From a virus: a DNA stretch of 42,850 nt. The stretch covers positions 1-42,850 of IMG/VR virus record IMGVR_UViG_3300025131_000093. One strand, 5' to 3'. Both the position numbers and the translations under genes were made by a program. Within the stretch, counting starts at the first letter, position 1, and each line of letters begins with the position of its first letter. Below the pieces are notes generated by a model. That model was not told the DNA's origin, ran no database searches, and was given only the letters and a program-made list of their open reading frames with translations. Below, piece by piece: positions 5,003 to 41,342 of the stretch.

Positions 5003-5037
5003 AAAGGCCGGCGGGGTAGCTAACCCTGCCGGCCTTT
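5003..5037. terminator. Bidirectional intrinsic terminator
   Basis: AAAGGCCGGC plus an inner GGGG pairs with CCCT plus GCCGGCCTTT around a seven-base loop, giving about 14 pairs. A-rich and T-rich flanks lie on the two sides. It sits between the convergent stops at 4983 (plus) and 5087 (minus), exactly where one terminator can serve both operons. Confidence 0.85.
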
Positions 5038-7724: not shown

Positions 7725-8042
7725 TTACGCCGTTTCCACTTCTTCCTCGTCCGCTCGCGCGACTCTCAACTCAAAAAATCCACCCGGAATGTCACCGAGC
7801 TGCATCATCATACGAGCATAGTAGGCTTTGTGATTGTTGTTCAGCTTGAACTCTTTGCCCGTCGTCTGAAGATCCGTCCGGTACCTCAGCACTTCATACA
7901 GCGTGGCGATACCATACCGCTTCCGACCCGTCGCCAACACCTTGTTCGCATAGTCCACCAGGCGCTTGTAGACGTGAGGATTGTCCCGATGAAATTCTTC
8001 GAACGCGATCTGCTGAAGCGACTTGATGGGGAATAGATCCAT
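7725..8042 (-). CDS. Conserved phage protein of unknown function (105 aa)
   Basis: ATG 8042 with AAGGAGG six bases upstream, the best ribosome binding site of this operon and its first gene. Sequence FEEFHRDNPHVYKRLVDYAN, then GRKRYGIATLYEVLRYRTDL and KLNNNHKAYYARMMM, matches a pattern I recall from many phage and prophage genomes, always uncharacterised. It is small, basic and helical. Given its lead position upstream of recombination genes, a DNA-metabolism role is possible but not shown. Confidence 0.75.
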   Translation of the reverse strand: MDLFPIKSLQQIAFEEFHRDNPHVYKRLVDYANKVLATGRKRYGIATLYEVLRYRTDLQTTGKEFKLNNNHKAYYARMMMQLGDIPGGFFELRVARADEEEVETA

Positions 8043-8169: not shown

Positions 8170-8198
8170 ATGATACCTAGATAGTCTCACAGGGTCAA
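8170..8198 (-). promoter_or_regulatory. Promoter of the recombination operon
   Basis: Reading the minus strand: TTGACC (8198-8193), 17-base spacer, TATCAT (8175-8170). The spacer begins CTGTGAGACTATC, so TGTGAGACTA occupies 8191-8182. This is a close variant of the TGTGAGATTAGC element at 726 and 40265. The leader of about 120 bases includes a GATGC-N4-GCATC hairpin at 8075-8088 before the AAGGAGG site of the gene at 8042. Confidence 0.7.
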
Positions 8199-8204
8199 GC
8201 ACAC

Positions 8205-8238
8205 AAAAAAATCCCCCTCGGTTCTCACCGAAGGGGAT
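8205..8238 (-). terminator. Intrinsic terminator ending the structural operon
   Basis: On the minus strand the stem reads ATCCCCTTCGG, a six-base loop and CCGAGGGGGAT (8238-8211, one internal mismatch), then a run of seven T. It lies 23 bases beyond the end of the giant virion gene at 8261 and just before the recombination promoter, so it insulates the two operons. Confidence 0.85.
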
Positions 8239-8260
8239 CGCACACCACACTGTAATTAGA

Positions 8261-35496: not shown

Positions 35497-36164
35497 GTTA
35501 TCTGCTGTCTGGCAACCTTATTAAGGATGGTATTCACGAACTGAGCAACGAATTCTAATTGGATCTTCTCACCGCCAAGAATCCACCCATTTCCCGCGTC
35601 ATCTGGCGTTATTTGCATCCCTAGAAGGTCCGGAATGCCCTGCTCGTTGTATCCGTCGTAGACATCCCCATCGAGGACGTAAAGAATCTGCGGTCCAAGT
35701 GGTCCTTTTTCGACCCTAAATGCGAGGCAACGGAAGTCGTTTACGACGAAAATCGAGACTTTCTTGTCTCTGGATTCGGCATTCGCGCGTTTCAGGACGC
35801 ATTCATCGAGTTTTAGACGAACGGCCTTCACCTTCTCTGCCGTCTGGCCGCGCCACTTGCGCTTGCGCTTCTCTCCTGGCTCAAACTTCGGTCCCTGGTG
35901 GACCGTGCCGTCTGACAGTTCCAACGTCGCTTCACCGCCCCCAGGCCTCCAGTGTGAGCGCATCGAGATGTCGGTATCGTCTATGATCGAGGTAGTGACG
36001 ATCGACGTGCCACCAGGGTTGTTGAACGCGCGATTGGACTTGACAGCCGACTCAAAGGTGCGCTCGACCGTTCGTGCCGGCCCTCGCTCCATCTTGGACT
36101 GACCGATGATGTCGTCAGTCTCGACGCTGTTCAGTATGCCGTCATAATCTTCTTCTTCGGGCAT
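35493..36164 (-). CDS. Hypothetical protein between packaging and head modules (223 aa)
   Basis: ATG 36164, overlapping the stop of the preceding membrane protein. MPEEEDYDGILNSVETDDII is acidic, then comes a basic patch (FEPGEKRKRKWRGQTAEKVK) and an ordered alpha/beta C-terminal half (VSIFVVNDFRCLAFRVEKGP; QILYVLDGDVYDGYNEQGIP). Length and composition suggest a soluble assembly or DNA-associated protein. No family recognised. It is the last gene before the leader terminator and would end the packaging transcript. Confidence 0.6.
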   Translation of the reverse strand: MPEEEDYDGILNSVETDDIIGQSKMERGPARTVERTFESAVKSNRAFNNPGGTSIVTTSIIDDTDISMRSHWRPGGGEATLELSDGTVHQGPKFEPGEKRKRKWRGQTAEKVKAVRLKLDECVLKRANAESRDKKVSIFVVNDFRCLAFRVEKGPLGPQILYVLDGDVYDGYNEQGIPDLLGMQITPDDAGNGWILGGEKIQLEFVAQFVNTILNKVARQQIT

Positions 36165-36511
36165 TACGCTTCTTCCTCAACGTCCACGTCAGTAGGGAAA
36201 ATTCCCTCGACAGATTCTGTCGTCGTTTCCCTGCCTCCGAATGGGCCATCATTCACGACAGGTCCGTTCAGTTCTGCTACCCATTGTCCATCTGGTTGCT
36301 TGTAAAATCCTCCTGTGCCGTCTTGCATCGGGATGTAGCCTGGCAGTTCTGGCACCGGCTCCCGATCGAGTTGTCGGATCGAGGCGTGTTCGACCAGGCC
36401 GACGAGTTTGTCGACAAGCTCGCTGTTCTGCTTTCGTAGGCCAATGGCGATGTTACCGATGAACCAGATACAGACGACCGCGAAGGCCGCGAACACCAGA
36501 AGTGTTTCCAT
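36164..36511 (-). CDS. Membrane-anchored protein with coiled stem (115 aa)
   Basis: ATG 36511 with AAGGAGG and good spacing; a longer in-frame form from 36541 is less likely. One N-terminal membrane segment (METLLVFAAFAVVCIWFIGN) is followed by a helix (LRKQNSELVDKLVGLVEHAS) and a Pro/Gly-rich tail with a short repeat (MQDGTGGFYKQPDGQWVAEL). Topology resembles an inner-membrane spanin or signal-anchor lysis protein. This fits its place after the endolysin and terminase genes but is not proven. Confidence 0.6.
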   Translation of the reverse strand: METLLVFAAFAVVCIWFIGNIAIGLRKQNSELVDKLVGLVEHASIRQLDREPVPELPGYIPMQDGTGGFYKQPDGQWVAELNGPVVNDGPFGGRETTTESVEGIFPTDVDVEEEA

Positions 36512-36672: not shown

Positions 36673-36749
36673 CAGCACCTACTGTGCACGTTTTCAGTTA
36701 GCCGCGTGAATGCCACAGCCGACAACCACAGGCAATCTGTATCGCTCAA
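36672..36749 (-). CDS. Possible very short peptide gene (25 aa)
   Basis: A TTG at 36749 overlaps the stop of the nuclease gene and follows GGAGG by six bases. The frame then runs MSDTDCLWLSAVAFTRLTEN and five more residues to a TGA whose last base is the first base of the next ATG (36672). Both junctions look coupled, but 25 residues is too short to be sure. It may act as a translational bridge. Confidence 0.3.
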   Translation of the reverse strand: MSDTDCLWLSAVAFTRLTENVHSRC

Positions 36750-37570
36750 ATCAGTCCTCCCATCGTAGTTGATTCGCGCTCCATCTTCCTGAGCCGTATC
36801 GCCTTGTCCATCAAATCCTCATCCTCATCTTCCGGTTCCTCGTCGCGAATATACGGCTCCGCGAAGTCTGCCATCGACGGGTCGCCGATGTTCTCTACTG
36901 CGCGTGTTTTGAATGCCGGCGCGTGACCGGCCTCACGTAGTTCCTCTGCAATCGGGAAGTAGAGGATGCCCTGGATCGCGAGCATCCACCCGAAGATCGC
37001 ATCATCTTTGGCACCTCTGATATGCTCGTATTTGCCACGCTTGTTCCTTTGAAAGACCGACATCTGGTCGAGAATCAGCGACGATCGGACGTGGTAGAGG
37101 TTGTCGCGCATCCCCGTTCGCGCGTCGTTCACTAGCTTGTTGCGAGTGAGCGCGTTGGTGTTCCACCCTAACTTTTCCTTCCGCGTGTCCGAGATGTCTG
37201 CCCTGTAAAACCACTCGTAATGGAGGTTAGGATATTCCAGATTCTTGAGGACTTGAAGCGGCGTAATATCCTTGTTGTTCTCGATGAGGACGTAGGACCA
37301 GTTGTACCATTTCCCGACGAGATAACAGAGTAAACCAAACTCGTCTGGGTCGATGGAGCCGGTGAACTCACAACACTGATTTCCTGTGTCTGACCGCAGT
37401 ACGCACAGGGAACTGTCATCACCGTGTTCAAGTCCTTCTGCGACATCGGCTCCGAGAGAATAGGTTTTTCCTGGCTCCGGTCGCTCCCAAACTTTGAGCA
37501 AAATGCGCGCATCGCCTTCGACTCCGAAAAGGGATTCGACATCGTATTCTATTTTGAGGGCTTCAGGCAT
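36746..37570 (-). CDS. Terminase large subunit, nuclease half (274 aa)
   Basis: RNase H-like nuclease domain of a large terminase, encoded without the ATPase. Catalytic acids visible: D42 in SLGADVAEG, E97 in VLIENNKD and D189/D190 in GAKDDAIFG, in the order and spacing of TerL nucleases. WNTNALTRNKLVNDARTGM also matches the family pattern before the last acid. It would cut the concatemer during headful packaging. The partner ATPase is encoded separately at 38268-39368, with lysis genes between. The start at 37570 overlaps the endolysin stop by eight bases with no obvious ribosome binding site, implying coupled translation. Confidence 0.85.
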   Translation of the reverse strand: MPEALKIEYDVESLFGVEGDARILLKVWERPEPGKTYSLGADVAEGLEHGDDSSLCVLRSDTGNQCCEFTGSIDPDEFGLLCYLVGKWYNWSYVLIENNKDITPLQVLKNLEYPNLHYEWFYRADISDTRKEKLGWNTNALTRNKLVNDARTGMRDNLYHVRSSLILDQMSVFQRNKRGKYEHIRGAKDDAIFGWMLAIQGILYFPIAEELREAGHAPAFKTRAVENIGDPSMADFAEPYIRDEEPEDEDEDLMDKAIRLRKMERESTTMGGLI

Positions 37571-37976
37571 TTTGATAGATCAGCGTTGCGACACATCCGA
37601 TGTGCCAGTGTTCGGAATCCTTCCCGCGCCCGACACGGACGAGGGGGATGCCCTGGTTGAGACACAGCCGTTCAAACCTGTTGGCCGTATCCTTCGTCCA
37701 CGTCTTGTCTCCGAAGAAGGCTTTGTCGCCGGCACTGATCGCAGAGATGTCTGCCGCCTCACTGTGTTCGTGGAACGGCCCTGGCTTCGTTATTGCCGTC
37801 ACACGGATGGGGCGATCGAAGTAACTCAGGGCGATAGCATTCGCCTGTGCTAACCAGATTGATAACGTCGCGTTGAGTTGGTTCGATCGCCACAGTTGCA
37901 GATCCTTGACGCCCTTGAAGATCATCAGCTCGTAGACACTGCCTGTCGCCTCGTTTCGTTGAATCAGATCAGCCAT
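37563..37976 (-). CDS. Endolysin, M15-type peptidase (137 aa)
   Basis: Probable zinc peptidase that cleaves the peptide cross-links of peptidoglycan (D-Ala-D-Ala carboxypeptidase or L-Ala-D-Glu type). FHEHSEAADIS gives H69 and D76 with the H-x6-D spacing of M15 enzymes, and SEHWHIG gives E122 and H125, completing the metal and catalytic set. There is no cell-wall-binding domain and no signal peptide, so release would need a holin. ATG 37976 has GGAG six bases upstream; an in-frame start at 38027 is less likely. The gene overlaps the membrane protein before it and the nuclease after it. Confidence 0.8.
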   Translation of the reverse strand: MADLIQRNEATGSVYELMIFKGVKDLQLWRSNQLNATLSIWLAQANAIALSYFDRPIRVTAITKPGPFHEHSEAADISAISAGDKAFFGDKTWTKDTANRFERLCLNQGIPLVRVGRGKDSEHWHIGCVATLIYQNA

Positions 37977-38268
37977 ACCACGCTCCGTATTTGCCGGCGA
38001 TGAGTACGCCGAGTCTGAAGAACGCAAGCGAGGCTACGCCGGCAATAGCCGTGACGATCGCCAGACCCTTCCTTGTGAATACGCTCGGTCGAGGGACGAG
38101 CCACCCGATGATTGCTACATAGAAGTAGAAGTATCGTGTGACGATGTGCCAGAGGTCGTGCTTGGTTCCGGGGTGAATAATCGGGTCGCCCCACGTTGCA
38201 TCCCCATAGCCTTTGGCGATCGACATCACGCAGATCGCGAGCAGTGAGCAGTATAGATCCCTCAACAT
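37969..38268 (-). CDS. Probable holin, multi-span membrane protein (99 aa)
   Basis: ATG 38268 shares a base with the stop of the terminase ATPase (TGATG); a GTG one codon earlier is possible. It has three hydrophobic stretches: residues about 1-18 (LYCSLLAICVMSIA), about 46-60 (YFYFYVAIIGWLV) and about 70-92 (GLAIVTAIAGVASLAFF). It directly precedes the endolysin, the usual holin position. The segment between spans one and two contains HPGTKHDLWHIVTRY. Holin function is inferred from context and topology. Confidence 0.65.
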   Translation of the reverse strand: MLRDLYCSLLAICVMSIAKGYGDATWGDPIIHPGTKHDLWHIVTRYFYFYVAIIGWLVPRPSVFTRKGLAIVTAIAGVASLAFFRLGVLIAGKYGAWYG

Positions 38269-39368
38269 CACGCCGCCTCGTTGAAGATGATGCGCTTCCG
38301 TGTTTCGTAGTGATGCTGCGTAGCCGCGCGCGCGAAGTATTCTGCGTCTGGCTCGATCTCTGCCTCGTATTCTTGCTCGTCTAGGAAACCGAGCGTTGGG
38401 TCCACCATGTGAACCTCCCTCTGTTCCTTGATAAGATCCATCGCGAAAGCCAATCGGATACCCGATGGCTGAAATAGACCGTATGTACGCGTATCACGGC
38501 TGTCCTCGTCATACGAGGCGATGATTCTCGTTTTTTCTTCTTCGGGGATGATCCAGTCTGGAACGTCGAGAAGTGTCCAGAAGTGAAAGCGCAAATCTGG
38601 AATTTCCGCACGACGTGTGTAGAGACTTGGATGAATCCAAGAGATGCCAACACTCTCACGGTATATAGGCGTAAACGACCGAATGATTTCACCTGGTGGT
38701 CCGCCCACACCGGCAGTCCTCGCAACACATTCGTCGTCCACGTCCTTTGGCTGTTCTTCGTCCAGGTGGACGATCTCTTGCTTGGTTCCCTGAAACGCTG
38801 CGGCTCCCTGACTTGAATACCTAAAACGGATGACAGAATTGAACGGTGGCTTAAATACGATGACGTTATTTTTCCATCCACGCTCAACCGTGTAGTCGCA
38901 AGAATCCGTGAGTAGATACTCCGGACAAAGTTCGTGATACTTCGCTTGAACGATTTCAATGGATGTGTCCTCGGTGTCAGAGACAGTCCAGACGTTCACT
39001 GGCGGTAGGAAGCGTTCGCTCGCTTGCTTGGTGACGGGATTCATCCCGATGCATCCGGAGATCACTTCTGCGGCTGACGAGTAGGTCTTGGCGCAACGGT
39101 TTCCGGTGACGACGATGCGTTGCTTGGATGTGTCCAGGTGGAACTTCAGGGGCGAGGATTTGATGTCGCCGTTGGGTAGGGCGCCTTCGGGACAGTCGAA
39201 GGGCATATAGTTGTAGATGGGATCTGCCGCGACGTGATCCATGTAGTATCGGAAGTTGGGGATGGTGCGTTCGGCTCGTTCGGAAAGCTCGTTCGCCTCA
39301 TTCGGATACTTCTGAATCATAAAGCTCAACATGGTCACGGCTGACCATATATCGCCTATGCTCGCCAT
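38268..39368 (-). CDS. Terminase large subunit, ATPase half (366 aa)
   Basis: ATPase motor part of a large terminase. Walker A is TGNRCAKTYS (G89-T95; the phage-type G-N-R-x-A-K-T with Ala in place of the usual Gly before Lys). Walker B is EIVHLDEEQ (199-206, catalytic Glu after Asp). The coupling motif is SFTP (231-234). The protein ends at FNEAA after about 120 further residues and lacks the nuclease acids, which are found in the separate 274-residue protein at 36746-37570. It starts at ATG 39368, sharing a base with the previous gene's stop. It is part of the packaging operon driven from 40257. Confidence 0.88.
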   Translation of the reverse strand: MASIGDIWSAVTMLSFMIQKYPNEANELSERAERTIPNFRYYMDHVAADPIYNYMPFDCPEGALPNGDIKSSPLKFHLDTSKQRIVVTGNRCAKTYSSAAEVISGCIGMNPVTKQASERFLPPVNVWTVSDTEDTSIEIVQAKYHELCPEYLLTDSCDYTVERGWKNNVIVFKPPFNSVIRFRYSSQGAAAFQGTKQEIVHLDEEQPKDVDDECVARTAGVGGPPGEIIRSFTPIYRESVGISWIHPSLYTRRAEIPDLRFHFWTLLDVPDWIIPEEEKTRIIASYDEDSRDTRTYGLFQPSGIRLAFAMDLIKEQREVHMVDPTLGFLDEQEYEAEIEPDAEYFARAATQHHYETRKRIIFNEAA

Positions 39369-39619: not shown

Positions 39620-39824
39620 TGAGTATCCTCTCTGACGCGCGTGGTGCGTTGCCCTCGCCTCGCTCGATCTCGCCGGCCAGGAGTCGCGCGTCCTTCGTCA
39701 GTTGATCCTTGAGTCGTTTCTCGTCGCGGTCGAATGTCTCCGTGACGATGTTCGGGATCTCAGGATCGAGGTCTGCGAGTTCCGCGACCTTGAATCCGGA
39801 TTTGAATTTGTGTCGCTCGTTCAT
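39612..39824 (-). CDS. Small charged helical protein (70 aa)
   Basis: ATG 39824, overlapping the previous stop by four bases. MNERHKFKSGFKVAELADLD is followed by a long charged helix (DEKRLKDQLTKDARLLAGEI). It resembles a small packaging accessory or terminase small-subunit-like oligomer, but no motif is diagnostic. Second gene of the packaging operon. Confidence 0.6.
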   Translation of the reverse strand: MNERHKFKSGFKVAELADLDPEIPNIVTETFDRDEKRLKDQLTKDARLLAGEIERGEGNAPRASERILNA

Positions 39825-40150
39825 CCGGACGTGCGATCGTCGGTCGACTTCGGACCTTTGGAGAAGTAGGGATCTGCCGCTACCTCGACCGATGGCGGCT
39901 GAGTGTTGATCGAGTTGCCGACTGCGCTGATCTGTTGCTCTGCGGCCTTGAGGCGCCGTTCCAGGGAGAGGATGCGATCGTTAAACTCCGGCATCAGTTC
40001 GCGCATCGCCCTGGTCACGCGCGTCTGTGCGCGTTCCTCGTCGGACGGATCTGGTTCTGCCGGTGGTGCGGATTTGACTACTGGCTCCGGATCGCCCTTC
40101 GGTGTCGCTTCGGCTTTTTTCGATGGTCTCTTTGGTTGTCGCTTGGCCAT
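39821..40150 (-). CDS. Basic coiled-coil protein, first gene of packaging operon (109 aa)
   Basis: ATG 40150 with GGAGG five bases upstream, about 80 bases after the -10 box of the promoter at 40257-40229. The N-terminus is very basic (MAKRQPKRPSKKAEATPKGD), then Pro/Glu-rich, then a coiled coil (FNDRILSLERRLKAAEQQIS). Basic tail plus coiled coil could bind DNA or help terminase assembly, so it is a candidate terminase small subunit. No close family recognised. Confidence 0.65.
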   Translation of the reverse strand: MAKRQPKRPSKKAEATPKGDPEPVVKSAPPAEPDPSDEERAQTRVTRAMRELMPEFNDRILSLERRLKAAEQQISAVGNSINTQPPSVEVAADPYFSKGPKSTDDRTSG

Positions 40151-40228
40151 GTTACCTCCAAAAAAGATGGCGAGGGTGACGGAATGACGGTCCCGTCGCC
40201 CCCGCCTGGGCTAAGAAAGTGTGATCTG

Positions 40229-40257
40229 ATAATAACCCTCTCTGGCGAGTATGTCAA
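40229..40257 (-). promoter_or_regulatory. Strong promoter of the packaging/lysis operon
   Basis: Minus strand: perfect TTGACA (40257-40252), 17-base spacer, TATTAT (40234-40229, five of six). It faces the gene at 40150. It is back to back with the plus-strand promoter at 40278; the two -35 boxes are 20 bases apart and the TGTGAGATTAGC element lies between them, so one regulator could control both. Confidence 0.8.
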
Positions 40258-40264
40258 CATCTTG

Positions 40265-40306
40265 TGTGAGATTAGCGTTGACACGCGCGATATTGTAGGT
40301 TAAGAT
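40265..40306 (+). promoter_or_regulatory. Plus-strand promoter with TGTGAGATTAGC element
   Basis: TGTGAGATTAGC (40265-40276), then perfect TTGACA (40278-40283), 17-base spacer, TAAGAT (40301-40306, four of six). The 12-base element and its placement just before the -35 box match the early promoter at 726-745. Start of transcription would be near 40313. No good protein gene follows at once; the transcript meets a strong terminator at 40387-40420. Confidence 0.7.
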
Positions 40307-40312
40307 TGGTTC

Positions 40313-40420
40313 GACACCCACGGTGTTTCTTCGGGTGTTTCCTCAACTGTTTCCTCTGCAGGCTTGGCCGTCCGTCGAGAAAACCCACTGTCATCGGAGC
40401 CGTCCGATGGCAGTTTTTTT
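40313..40420 (+). ncRNA. Candidate small RNA or attenuated leader (about 105 nt)
   Basis: Bounded by a strong promoter (TTGACA at 40278) and a strong intrinsic terminator, with no convincing ribosome binding site or gene between. The 5' end can fold as ACACCC-N13-GGGTGT. The middle holds three GTTTC(T/C)TC-type repeats, and the terminator stem forms the 3' end. This is the typical build of a phage small RNA. An attenuator leader for transcription toward 40504 is the alternative. Confidence 0.5.
40387..40420 (+). terminator. Intrinsic terminator, 12-bp stem and seven T
   Basis: ACTGTCATCGGA (40387-40398), four-base loop GCCG, TCCGATGGCAGT (40403-40414), with one G-U pair and no mismatch, then TTTTTTT. 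It points to the plus strand. It is one of the best terminators in the window although no sizeable plus-strand gene precedes it. Confidence 0.85.
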
Positions 40421-40429
40421 CGTGCGCGC

Positions 40430-40458
40430 TTGACTCGGTGCAATTCATGTGCTAATAT
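40430..40458 (+). promoter_or_regulatory. Second plus-strand promoter
   Basis: TTGACT (40430-40435), 17-base spacer, TAATAT (40453-40458, four of six). It starts only ten bases after the T-run of the upstream terminator, so transcription is restarted right after being stopped. The expected start is near 40465, leading into a structured leader and the small gene at 40504. Confidence 0.6.
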
Positions 40459-40503
40459 CATTTCACGAAAGGACGGCCACCACTTGAAACTGCAGAGGCT
40501 TGT

Positions 40504-40668
40504 ATGACCTTTAGATCGAAAGCATACGCGGTTCACGCGACGCCACCGGATTCAGTATTGGGCGATCGAGTGAATCGTTTTTCTATGTTATTCGTAGCCA
40601 AGCGCACAGCCGTCCTTCGGAAGAAGGCCGGCTTTTTGCGTGTATGGATTGGTGAAGCACCCAGGTAA
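40504..40668 (+). CDS. Possible small basic protein (54 aa)
   Basis: ATG 40504 with AGAGG six bases upstream, downstream of the promoter at 40430. MTFRSKAYAVHATPPDSVLG is followed by a basic segment (FVAKRTAVLRKKAGFLRVW): eleven Lys/Arg and only three acidic residues. The frame contains two terminator-like hairpins (40549-40582 and 40608-40637), which argues either for attenuation within the gene or for the segment being a structured RNA and not coding. A hairpin GTATG...CATAC surrounds the start codon. Confidence 0.35.
   Translation: MTFRSKAYAVHATPPDSVLGDRVNRFSMLFVAKRTAVLRKKAGFLRVWIGEAPR
40608..40637 (+). terminator. Terminator-like hairpin with five T
   Basis: AGCCG, a one-base mismatch, CCTTC, loop GGAA, GAAGG, mismatch, CGGCT, then TTTTTG. 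A 10-bp stem on the plus strand that could end transcripts from the promoter at 40430. A weaker one (GATTCA...TGAATC then TTTTT) lies at 40549-40582. Confidence 0.6.
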
Positions 40669-40832
40669 CTCGCTGTAAAATCGAGAATAAGGGTCGGCAT
40701 GCGGGACTGACGACCGAAAACATTCGCCGCCGTATCGGGAACGAAACTCCGCGCCCCTTCAGCGATTGGGGCAGAATCCACAGGAAAGCCCAGGATTCCC
40801 ACAAGGGATAGGCCCAGGTTGGATTCGACAAC
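40669..40832. other. Non-coding gap
   Basis: No supported gene. It holds a GCGCCCC...GGGGC inverted repeat near 40751-40773 but no clear promoter. The open frames on the minus strand here lack a ribosome binding site and read like random sequence. Confidence 0.5.
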
Positions 40833-40864
40833 AAAAAACCCTCCGGACTCGAAAGTCCAGAGGG
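40833..40864 (-). terminator. Terminator of the right-hand minus-strand operon
   Basis: Minus strand: CCCTCTGGACT, loop TTCG, AGTCCGGAGGG (40864-40839, one mismatch), then TTTTTT (40838-40833). It would stop transcripts from the genes at 42490-41130 as well as any short transcript from 40938. Confidence 0.85.
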
Positions 40865-40886
40865 CAGTGGGGAGAGATCGAACAAC

Positions 40887-40943
40887 CTACGTCAAGGTCG
40901 TTATTCAAAAGTATCGCACAACTTTAACTCTACGTCAAGGTCG
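40887..40943. repeat. 14-base direct repeat CTACGTCAAGGTCG, two copies
   Basis: Copies at 40887-40900 and 40930-40943, 43 bases apart (about four helical turns), in a non-coding region. The complement contains TTGACG, so each could also be a -35 box. The second copy has GATACT 17 bases downstream on the minus strand. The repeats may be operator sites or short iterons. Confidence 0.65.
40910..40938 (-). promoter_or_regulatory. Promoter-like sequence inside the repeat region
   Basis: Minus strand: TTGACG (40938-40933), 17-base spacer, GATACT (40915-40910, four of six). A transcript starting near 40903 would reach the terminator at 40833 after only about 70 bases, so a small RNA is possible. 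Equally, the -35 match may just be part of the direct repeat. Confidence 0.4.
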
Positions 40944-41129
40944 GAGCTACCTCAATGCTCGGGGACGGGGGACATAGGTGTGCCAGAATCTACTTCAAAT
41001 TCAGGTCGATGACACGAATCGCGCTGAACCTAATGATTTCCCGCAAAAAGTGTCACTATGCATCGGGAACAGCAATCCGTGACGCCCCACACCCCGCCTT
41101 ATATGACGGTCCCTTCCCCGATTCCAAAG
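40944..41129. other. Non-coding gap after the 70-aa gene
   Basis: Downstream (3') region of the right-hand minus-strand operon. I see no gene with a ribosome binding site on either strand and no strong hairpin. It would form a long 3' untranslated stretch before the terminator at 40833-40864. Confidence 0.45.
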
Positions 41130-41342
41130 TCAACCCCGCGCATCAATGATCGGCGACATACACAACTTCCGCTCGATCTCGCGACAGTTTTCCTCGATGA
41201 CTTTACTCCACGACAGATCGCCGTTCTTCATCTGGTGGATCTCAAACAGACTGAGCGAGATACGAACGTCGCAGTGATACTCAGCCTTGCACCCCGTCAA
41301 TCGCCAAGACTTCCCATTGAAGTCATAAATCTCAACACTCAT
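41130..41342 (-). CDS. Small hypothetical protein (70 aa)
   Basis: ATG 41342 overlaps the HNH gene stop by four bases (ATGA). MSVEIYDFNGKSWRLTGCKA, then EYHCDVRISLSLFEIHQMKN suggests a beta-hairpin followed by a charged helix (SKVIEENCREIERKLCMSP). Last gene of the operon. Function unknown. Confidence 0.65.
   Translation of the reverse strand: MSVEIYDFNGKSWRLTGCKAEYHCDVRISLSLFEIHQMKNGDLSWSKVIEENCREIERKLCMSPIIDARG

Follow-up and report, generated by a model that had tools for sequence, protein, structure and literature searches.

The window, by which the whole stretch of DNA analysed is meant, is a virus record of 42,850 bases. It encodes a portal protein (phrog_156/332), a major head protein (phrog_14242), an Erf-like annealing protein and a Cas4-like exonuclease; the N-terminal part of a terminase falls slightly below the Pfam cut-off. 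The nearest capsids in phage records show 26-31% identity, the best being that of a podovirus record from Manatee Spring. Within 36746-39368 on the minus strand, the large subunit of the terminase appears to be in two pieces, an ATPase-like part at 38268-39368 (a weak Terminase_6N match) and a part at 36746-37570 that is nuclease-like on reading. Between the two parts are an endolysin-like open reading frame, so called by reading and with no family match, and a small membrane-like one. In the relative MW202554.1, too, the annotation terminase large subunit is carried by two CDS.

Of interest is a gap of 979 bp (40151-41129) flanked by two leftward operons. A long leftward operon starts at 40150, where the start of its first gene is preceded by GGAGGT; on the other side, leftward genes end at 41130, with a minus-strand terminator behind them at 40865-40838. 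The gap is apparently noncoding, with no convincing coding signal: codon-usage scores in the six frames are mostly in the range of spurious open reading frames, as judged from a reference of 189 such frames (median -0.200, 95th percentile 0.075 per codon). The sequence-only reading held that 40229-40668 contains no plus-strand protein gene of normal size, and this is borne out, as the longest plus-strand frame inside the span has at most 54 amino acids. The codon score of this doubtful frame resembles those of spurious frames. Its identity as a known protein was rejected (PHROG E 0.099, best phage tblastn E 6, no Pfam match).

A coding pattern on the minus strand, which the same reading had named as evidence that would count against an RNA locus, was looked for and is not clearly seen. 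Could a small minus-strand protein nevertheless be encoded, with the plus-strand signals incidental? The frame would be 40300-40536, or the part 40300-40461, ending ...EETVEETPEETPWVSNQS. Three 12-nt units on the plus strand (Table 1) read EETV/EETP/EETP on the minus strand, and the shorter frame, at 0.005 per codon, exceeds the median of spurious frames. The full frame, however, scores -0.178, found no counterpart among 50,697 phage records at E 10 and shows no Shine-Dalgarno site ahead of its ATG on reading, and it would share bases with a promoter and with a strong terminator. Such a protein is considered very improbable.

No tRNA or tmRNA was found within the window. An Rfam scan of 39800-41100 gave one weak snoRNA match, rejected as far below the gathering score, and RNA structure in 40637-40837 is no better than in shuffles. 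Elsewhere in the gap, a minus-strand promoter-like site runs from 40938 to 40910 (TTGACG-17-GATACT, with TG). Identical 14-bp repeats, CTACGTCAAGGTCG, lie at 40930-40943, across its -35, and at 40887-40900, close to its start point, and look like an operator pair. This promoter would yield a minus-strand RNA of about 70 nt with two hairpins, ending at the terminator at 40838, and the fold z for the predicted RNA is -4.71 (region 40833-40943).

The span 40229-40668 is rich in transcription signals (Table 1). A minus-strand promoter, a plus-strand promoter back to back with it, a 12-bp-stem terminator with seven T and a second plus-strand promoter had all been reported from the letters alone, and each was found again. 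The stem-loop of the first terminator occupies 40387-40414, with a loop of 4, and its T run is at 40414-40420. Two more terminator-like hairpins had been proposed. That at 40614-40627 extends by reading to 40608-40633 (10 pairs, one mismatch, a GGAA loop, then five T), and the hairpin alone has -15.6 kcal/mol; that at 40399-40411 is nested within the first terminator.

The whole window has 22 promoter-like sites with at least 9 of 12 consensus matches. The minus-strand site of the cluster is the sole 11/12 and hence the best, and one of the four 10/12 sites (P1) is inside the cluster. Promoter-like sites number five in 3001 scanned bases vs 1.6 (sd 1.4) in shuffles, and terminator-like sites seven vs 2.5 (sd 1.5); a 230-nt cluster with summed matches of at least 30 was present in 0 of 200 shuffled windows. 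The cluster of promoters and terminators exceeds chance.

Table 1. Features at 40229-40668; transcripts are predicted and their ends inferred.
Feature	Position	Strand	Details
Minus promoter, long leftward operon (first gene 39821-40150)	40229-40257	-	sigma-70-like TTGACA-17-TATTAT, 11/12
P1, RNA1 promoter	40278-40306	+	TTGACA-17-TAAGAT, 10/12; back to back with minus promoter
RNA1, predicted transcript	40313-40420	+	about 108 nt, terminated; P1 to terminator 1
Three tandem 12-nt units in RNA1	40324-40359	+	TGTTTCYTCNNN; TGTTTC at 40324, 40336, 40348
RNA1 block A'	40353-40361	+	complementary to 40490-40498
RNA1 block B'	40365-40373	+	complementary to 40471-40479
Terminator 1, of RNA1	40387-40420	+	12-pair stem, seven T; hairpin -19.1 kcal/mol
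P2, RNA2 promoter	40430-40458	+	TTGACT-17-TAATAT, 9/12; TGn extended -10
RNA2, predicted transcript	40465-40637	+	about 173 nt when terminated; P2 to terminator 2
Antiterminator segment, RNA2 leader	40469-40477	+	complementary to 40609-40617; overlaps RNA1 target 40471-40479
RNA1 target block B, RNA2 leader	40471-40479	+	
RNA1 target block A	40490-40498	+	holds AGAGG 5 nt before ATG 40504
54-aa open frame, doubtful gene	40504-40668	+	codon score -0.117; extends beyond terminator 2
Terminator 2 / attenuator of RNA2	40608-40637	+	AGCCGTCCTTC-GGAA-GAAGGCCGGCT in five-T run

What might these signals do? The main rival to an antisense switch is an ordinary operon boundary, where a strong promoter serves the long operon, short transcripts in the antisense direction are insulated by terminators that keep them out of the opposing operon, and any complementarity between RNA1 and RNA2 is chance. 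This is quite possible. Terminators and promoters are also found at other boundaries, at 5005-5034 between convergent operons and at 8209/8198 before gene 7725-8042, but a pair of tandem promoter-terminator units, both on one strand, exceeds what an insulator requires. The minus-strand boundary at 8170-8240 is built like that at 40.2 kb: directly after a 13-pair terminator comes a 10/12 promoter, which precedes gene 7725-8042.

The sequence-only reading had seen in this build either regulatory RNAs or a transcription-timing switch between operons. This is partly supported: the gap looks noncoding, and two short terminated RNAs are predicted beside the long-operon promoter. The tandem units TGTTTCYTCNNN of RNA1 are C/U-rich and anti-Shine-Dalgarno-like. 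Its fold z is -3.06, with the terminator hairpin supplying most of the energy; the folding of RNA2 is no better than chance (z -1.09).

A specific complementarity between the two RNAs, absent from the earlier reading, is added by the present analysis. RNA1 is perfectly complementary to the 5' leader of RNA2 in two colinear 9-bp blocks, which are in the correct order, and block A covers the Shine-Dalgarno-like AGAGG of the doubtful 54-aa frame. Two colinear 9-nt complement blocks were equalled in 2 of 20000 double shuffles. The nested two-block inverted repeat so formed is the only one of its kind in the window, compared with 0.033 per shuffled window (60 shuffles). Pairing of RNA1 with the leader 40465-40514 beats 998 of 1000 RNA1 shuffles, and formation of the RNA1-RNA2 dimer is favoured by about -21 kcal/mol relative to the two RNAs folded separately. 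When IMG/VR was scanned for CCTCTGCAG-N1-12-GGCCGTCC, 18 contigs matched, with two opposed matches only in this phage's copy. The motif GCCGTCC has three of its six plus-strand window copies within 250 bases here (40367, 40399 and 40609), along with the complement GGACGGC at 40471; the copy at 40399 sits in RNA1's own terminator hairpin.

Two comparisons favour an ordinary boundary. Plain duplex energy is not unique, as 38 of 1195 window segments equal the RNA1 pairing (two of them RNA1's own antisense), and nested repeats of equal strength occur twice in 378,219 bases of other phage DNA (38 loci), or about 0.2 per window. Both of these repeats belong to the 23 control loci that were chosen for carrying a form of the pattern (L004-L010, L027-L034, L036-L043); the 15 loci fetched as relatives (L012-L026), several of which are a capsid gene or fragment only, have none. 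Because real phage DNA yields more nested repeats than shuffles, location inside the 440-bp region bears much weight. It is here that a mere boundary accounts less well for the data: the window's only nested repeat falls exactly between the two units, and one of its blocks also matches a terminator arm.

This terminator arm is part of a second complementarity. The leader segment 40469-40477 and the 5' arm of terminator 2 (40609-40617) are perfect complements, a match of 9 that is reached by 78 of 20000 leader shuffles. In silico, the free fold of 40465-40640 gives the antiterminator a probability of 0.77 and the terminator 0.16. The terminator rises to 0.995 when 40471-40479 is blocked and to 0.996 when both RNA1 target blocks are occupied. 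If RNA2 is extended to 40672, the terminator hairpin is preferred even in the unbound RNA, and a switch would therefore need to operate with polymerase still near 40640. RNA1 might also shut off translation, as block A covers the AGAGG before ATG 40504.

Terminator 1 and P2 lie inside the nested inverted repeat that the two blocks make up, and this geometry would also allow action in cis. In a transcript that starts at P1 and continues through terminator 1, 40353-40373 could pair with 40471-40498 and hide the RNA2 leader, making a free RNA1 unnecessary. Few transcripts should carry both arms, however, because terminator 1 is strong, with its 12 pairs and seven T, and cis action is judged a slim prospect.

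Might RNA1 also, or instead, act in trans, its three UGUUUCYUC units serving as an anti-Shine-Dalgarno RNA that represses phage or host messages, with RNA2 as a decoy or sponge? Its mean duplex energy with 48 predicted gene starts beats 149 of 150 shuffles, and the start region of gene 35493-36164 matches it in two colinear stretches of 9 (36153-36161 and 36173-36181). Windows in gene interiors do not clearly show the first effect, as 46 of 150 shuffles are as good at 60 nt inside and 14 of 150 at 110 nt inside, which amounts to a mild overall preference for gene starts. The 9+9 match lies in GAA/GAG-rich coding DNA (VEE..., PEE...), where it is obtainable from composition. The best target over all genes is no better than in shuffles (49 of 200 as good). 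A trans-acting RNA1 thus appears unlikely, and the second target at 36164 is retained as a weak rival.

Are the RNAs conserved? IMG/VR contig 3300002514_000246, from a sample that we take to be a Pacific viral metagenome, is identical over 21,176 bases except for two N. Searches of IMG/VR with the TerL and capsid proteins for a diverged homologue gave only this contig. A search with a two-sequence capsid alignment brought seven further loci at 28-31%, and the same alignment in genome contigs gave 113 candidate stretches and no relatives among them. Phage records contain no DNA match to the gap 40151-41129. Besides the phage's own copy, five relative loci (capsid 28-31%) were scanned, and in four of these (L021-L024; not L025, whose stretch begins about 2.8 kb before the portal match) an 11/12 promoter lies upstream of the operon and is directed away from it. 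In L022 and L023 the promoter leads into a frame for a small protein, which has a Shine-Dalgarno-like site. These two distant relatives thus hold a small protein frame, and not an RNA pair, in a divergent unit near this position, which favours an ordinary boundary. The proteins, of 64 and 77 amino acids (L022:507-837 and L023 near 1142, minus strand), are behind strong promoters and are alike by eye. L021, L022 and L024 do not test the RNAs, as their terminase-like frames have no real similarity to that of this phage.

The best-known cases of antisense control among phages are in temperate ones. The c4 RNA of phages P1 and P7 is encoded on the strand of its target, with which it pairs through two segments. 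In published work, c4 (RF01695) is a small RNA with complementarity to the surroundings of a ribosome binding site (PMC12197685, PMC2864571), its target is ant (PMC12197685), and it is a processed 77-base RNA according to a title cited in PMC8546580. The complementarity around a ribosome binding site is found here too, in the block that holds AGAGG, with ATG 40504 a doubtful start. Unlike c4, RNA1 is a separate terminated unit, and its own promoter and terminator suggest that it does not arise by c4-like processing from a longer transcript. No antirepressor message is recognised as the target, the 54-aa frame having no family or phage-record match beyond chance, and the scan of 39800-41100 gave no match to the c4 covariance model (RF01695) at E up to 5, nor an accepted match to another Rfam family. 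The sar RNA of phage P22 is similar in being a short RNA whose pairing with a message keeps translation from starting; that message is the ant mRNA, according to PMC12197685, whereas the target here would be the neighbouring short transcript, whose frame is doubtful.

The pT181-type attenuator of a Staphylococcus plasmid offers a likeness in logic, as its leader holds either an antiterminator or a terminator and the antisense RNA removes the antiterminator segment, with complete complementarity to the 5' part of the attenuator (PMC4878617). Mutually exclusive structures appear here in silico only, and the fragment to 40672 favours the terminator unaided. Unlike the pT181 antisense RNA, RNA1 comes from upstream on the same strand, where it has a promoter and a terminator to itself, and its pairing is confined to two 9-bp blocks. 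No replication gene is seen downstream that could be under control, only the 54-aa frame without family matches. The mechanism resembles pT181 attenuation and c4 RNA but lacks features that define each, and it is a member of neither.

The best single reading is that the region is most likely an antisense-RNA attenuation switch, to which we assign a probability of roughly 0.4. It would be a noncoding control point that separates two leftward operons of a podovirus-like phage, with the minus-strand promoter driving the long packaging/structural operon. P1 would produce RNA1, stopped by its strong terminator, and P2 would produce RNA2. The 5' leader of RNA2 might pair with the 5' arm of its own terminator, with antitermination and read-through as the outcome, or alternatively with RNA1. 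Binding of RNA1 would hide both the antiterminator segment and AGAGG, and it is therefore proposed that the terminator forms and that the 54-aa frame, if translated at all, is shut off. In this model RNA1 would serve, at the boundary between the operons, as the antisense RNA that attenuates RNA2. The signals and complementarities can be read directly from the DNA and the switch from computed folds; that the RNAs are transcribed and pair in the cell we infer, as we do any role of RNA2 read-through and the timing. The one frame downstream is the doubtful 54-aa one, and past it the plus strand runs toward an opposing operon, a setting that gives read-through no obvious purpose and counts against this reading.

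A more far-reaching version has the terminator arm mimicked by RNA1, with GCCGTCC in RNA1 and terminator 2 and GGACGGC in the leader. RNA1 would also touch ribosome binding sites of the long operon, and a self-contained, RNA-only switch would link the timing of both operons without a protein repressor. This extension is rather doubtful. The candidate switch itself is compact, and is testable in vitro with two short templates. If true, a timing device that needs no protein would be added by such an attenuator, placed where two operons of an uncultivated podovirus-like phage meet.
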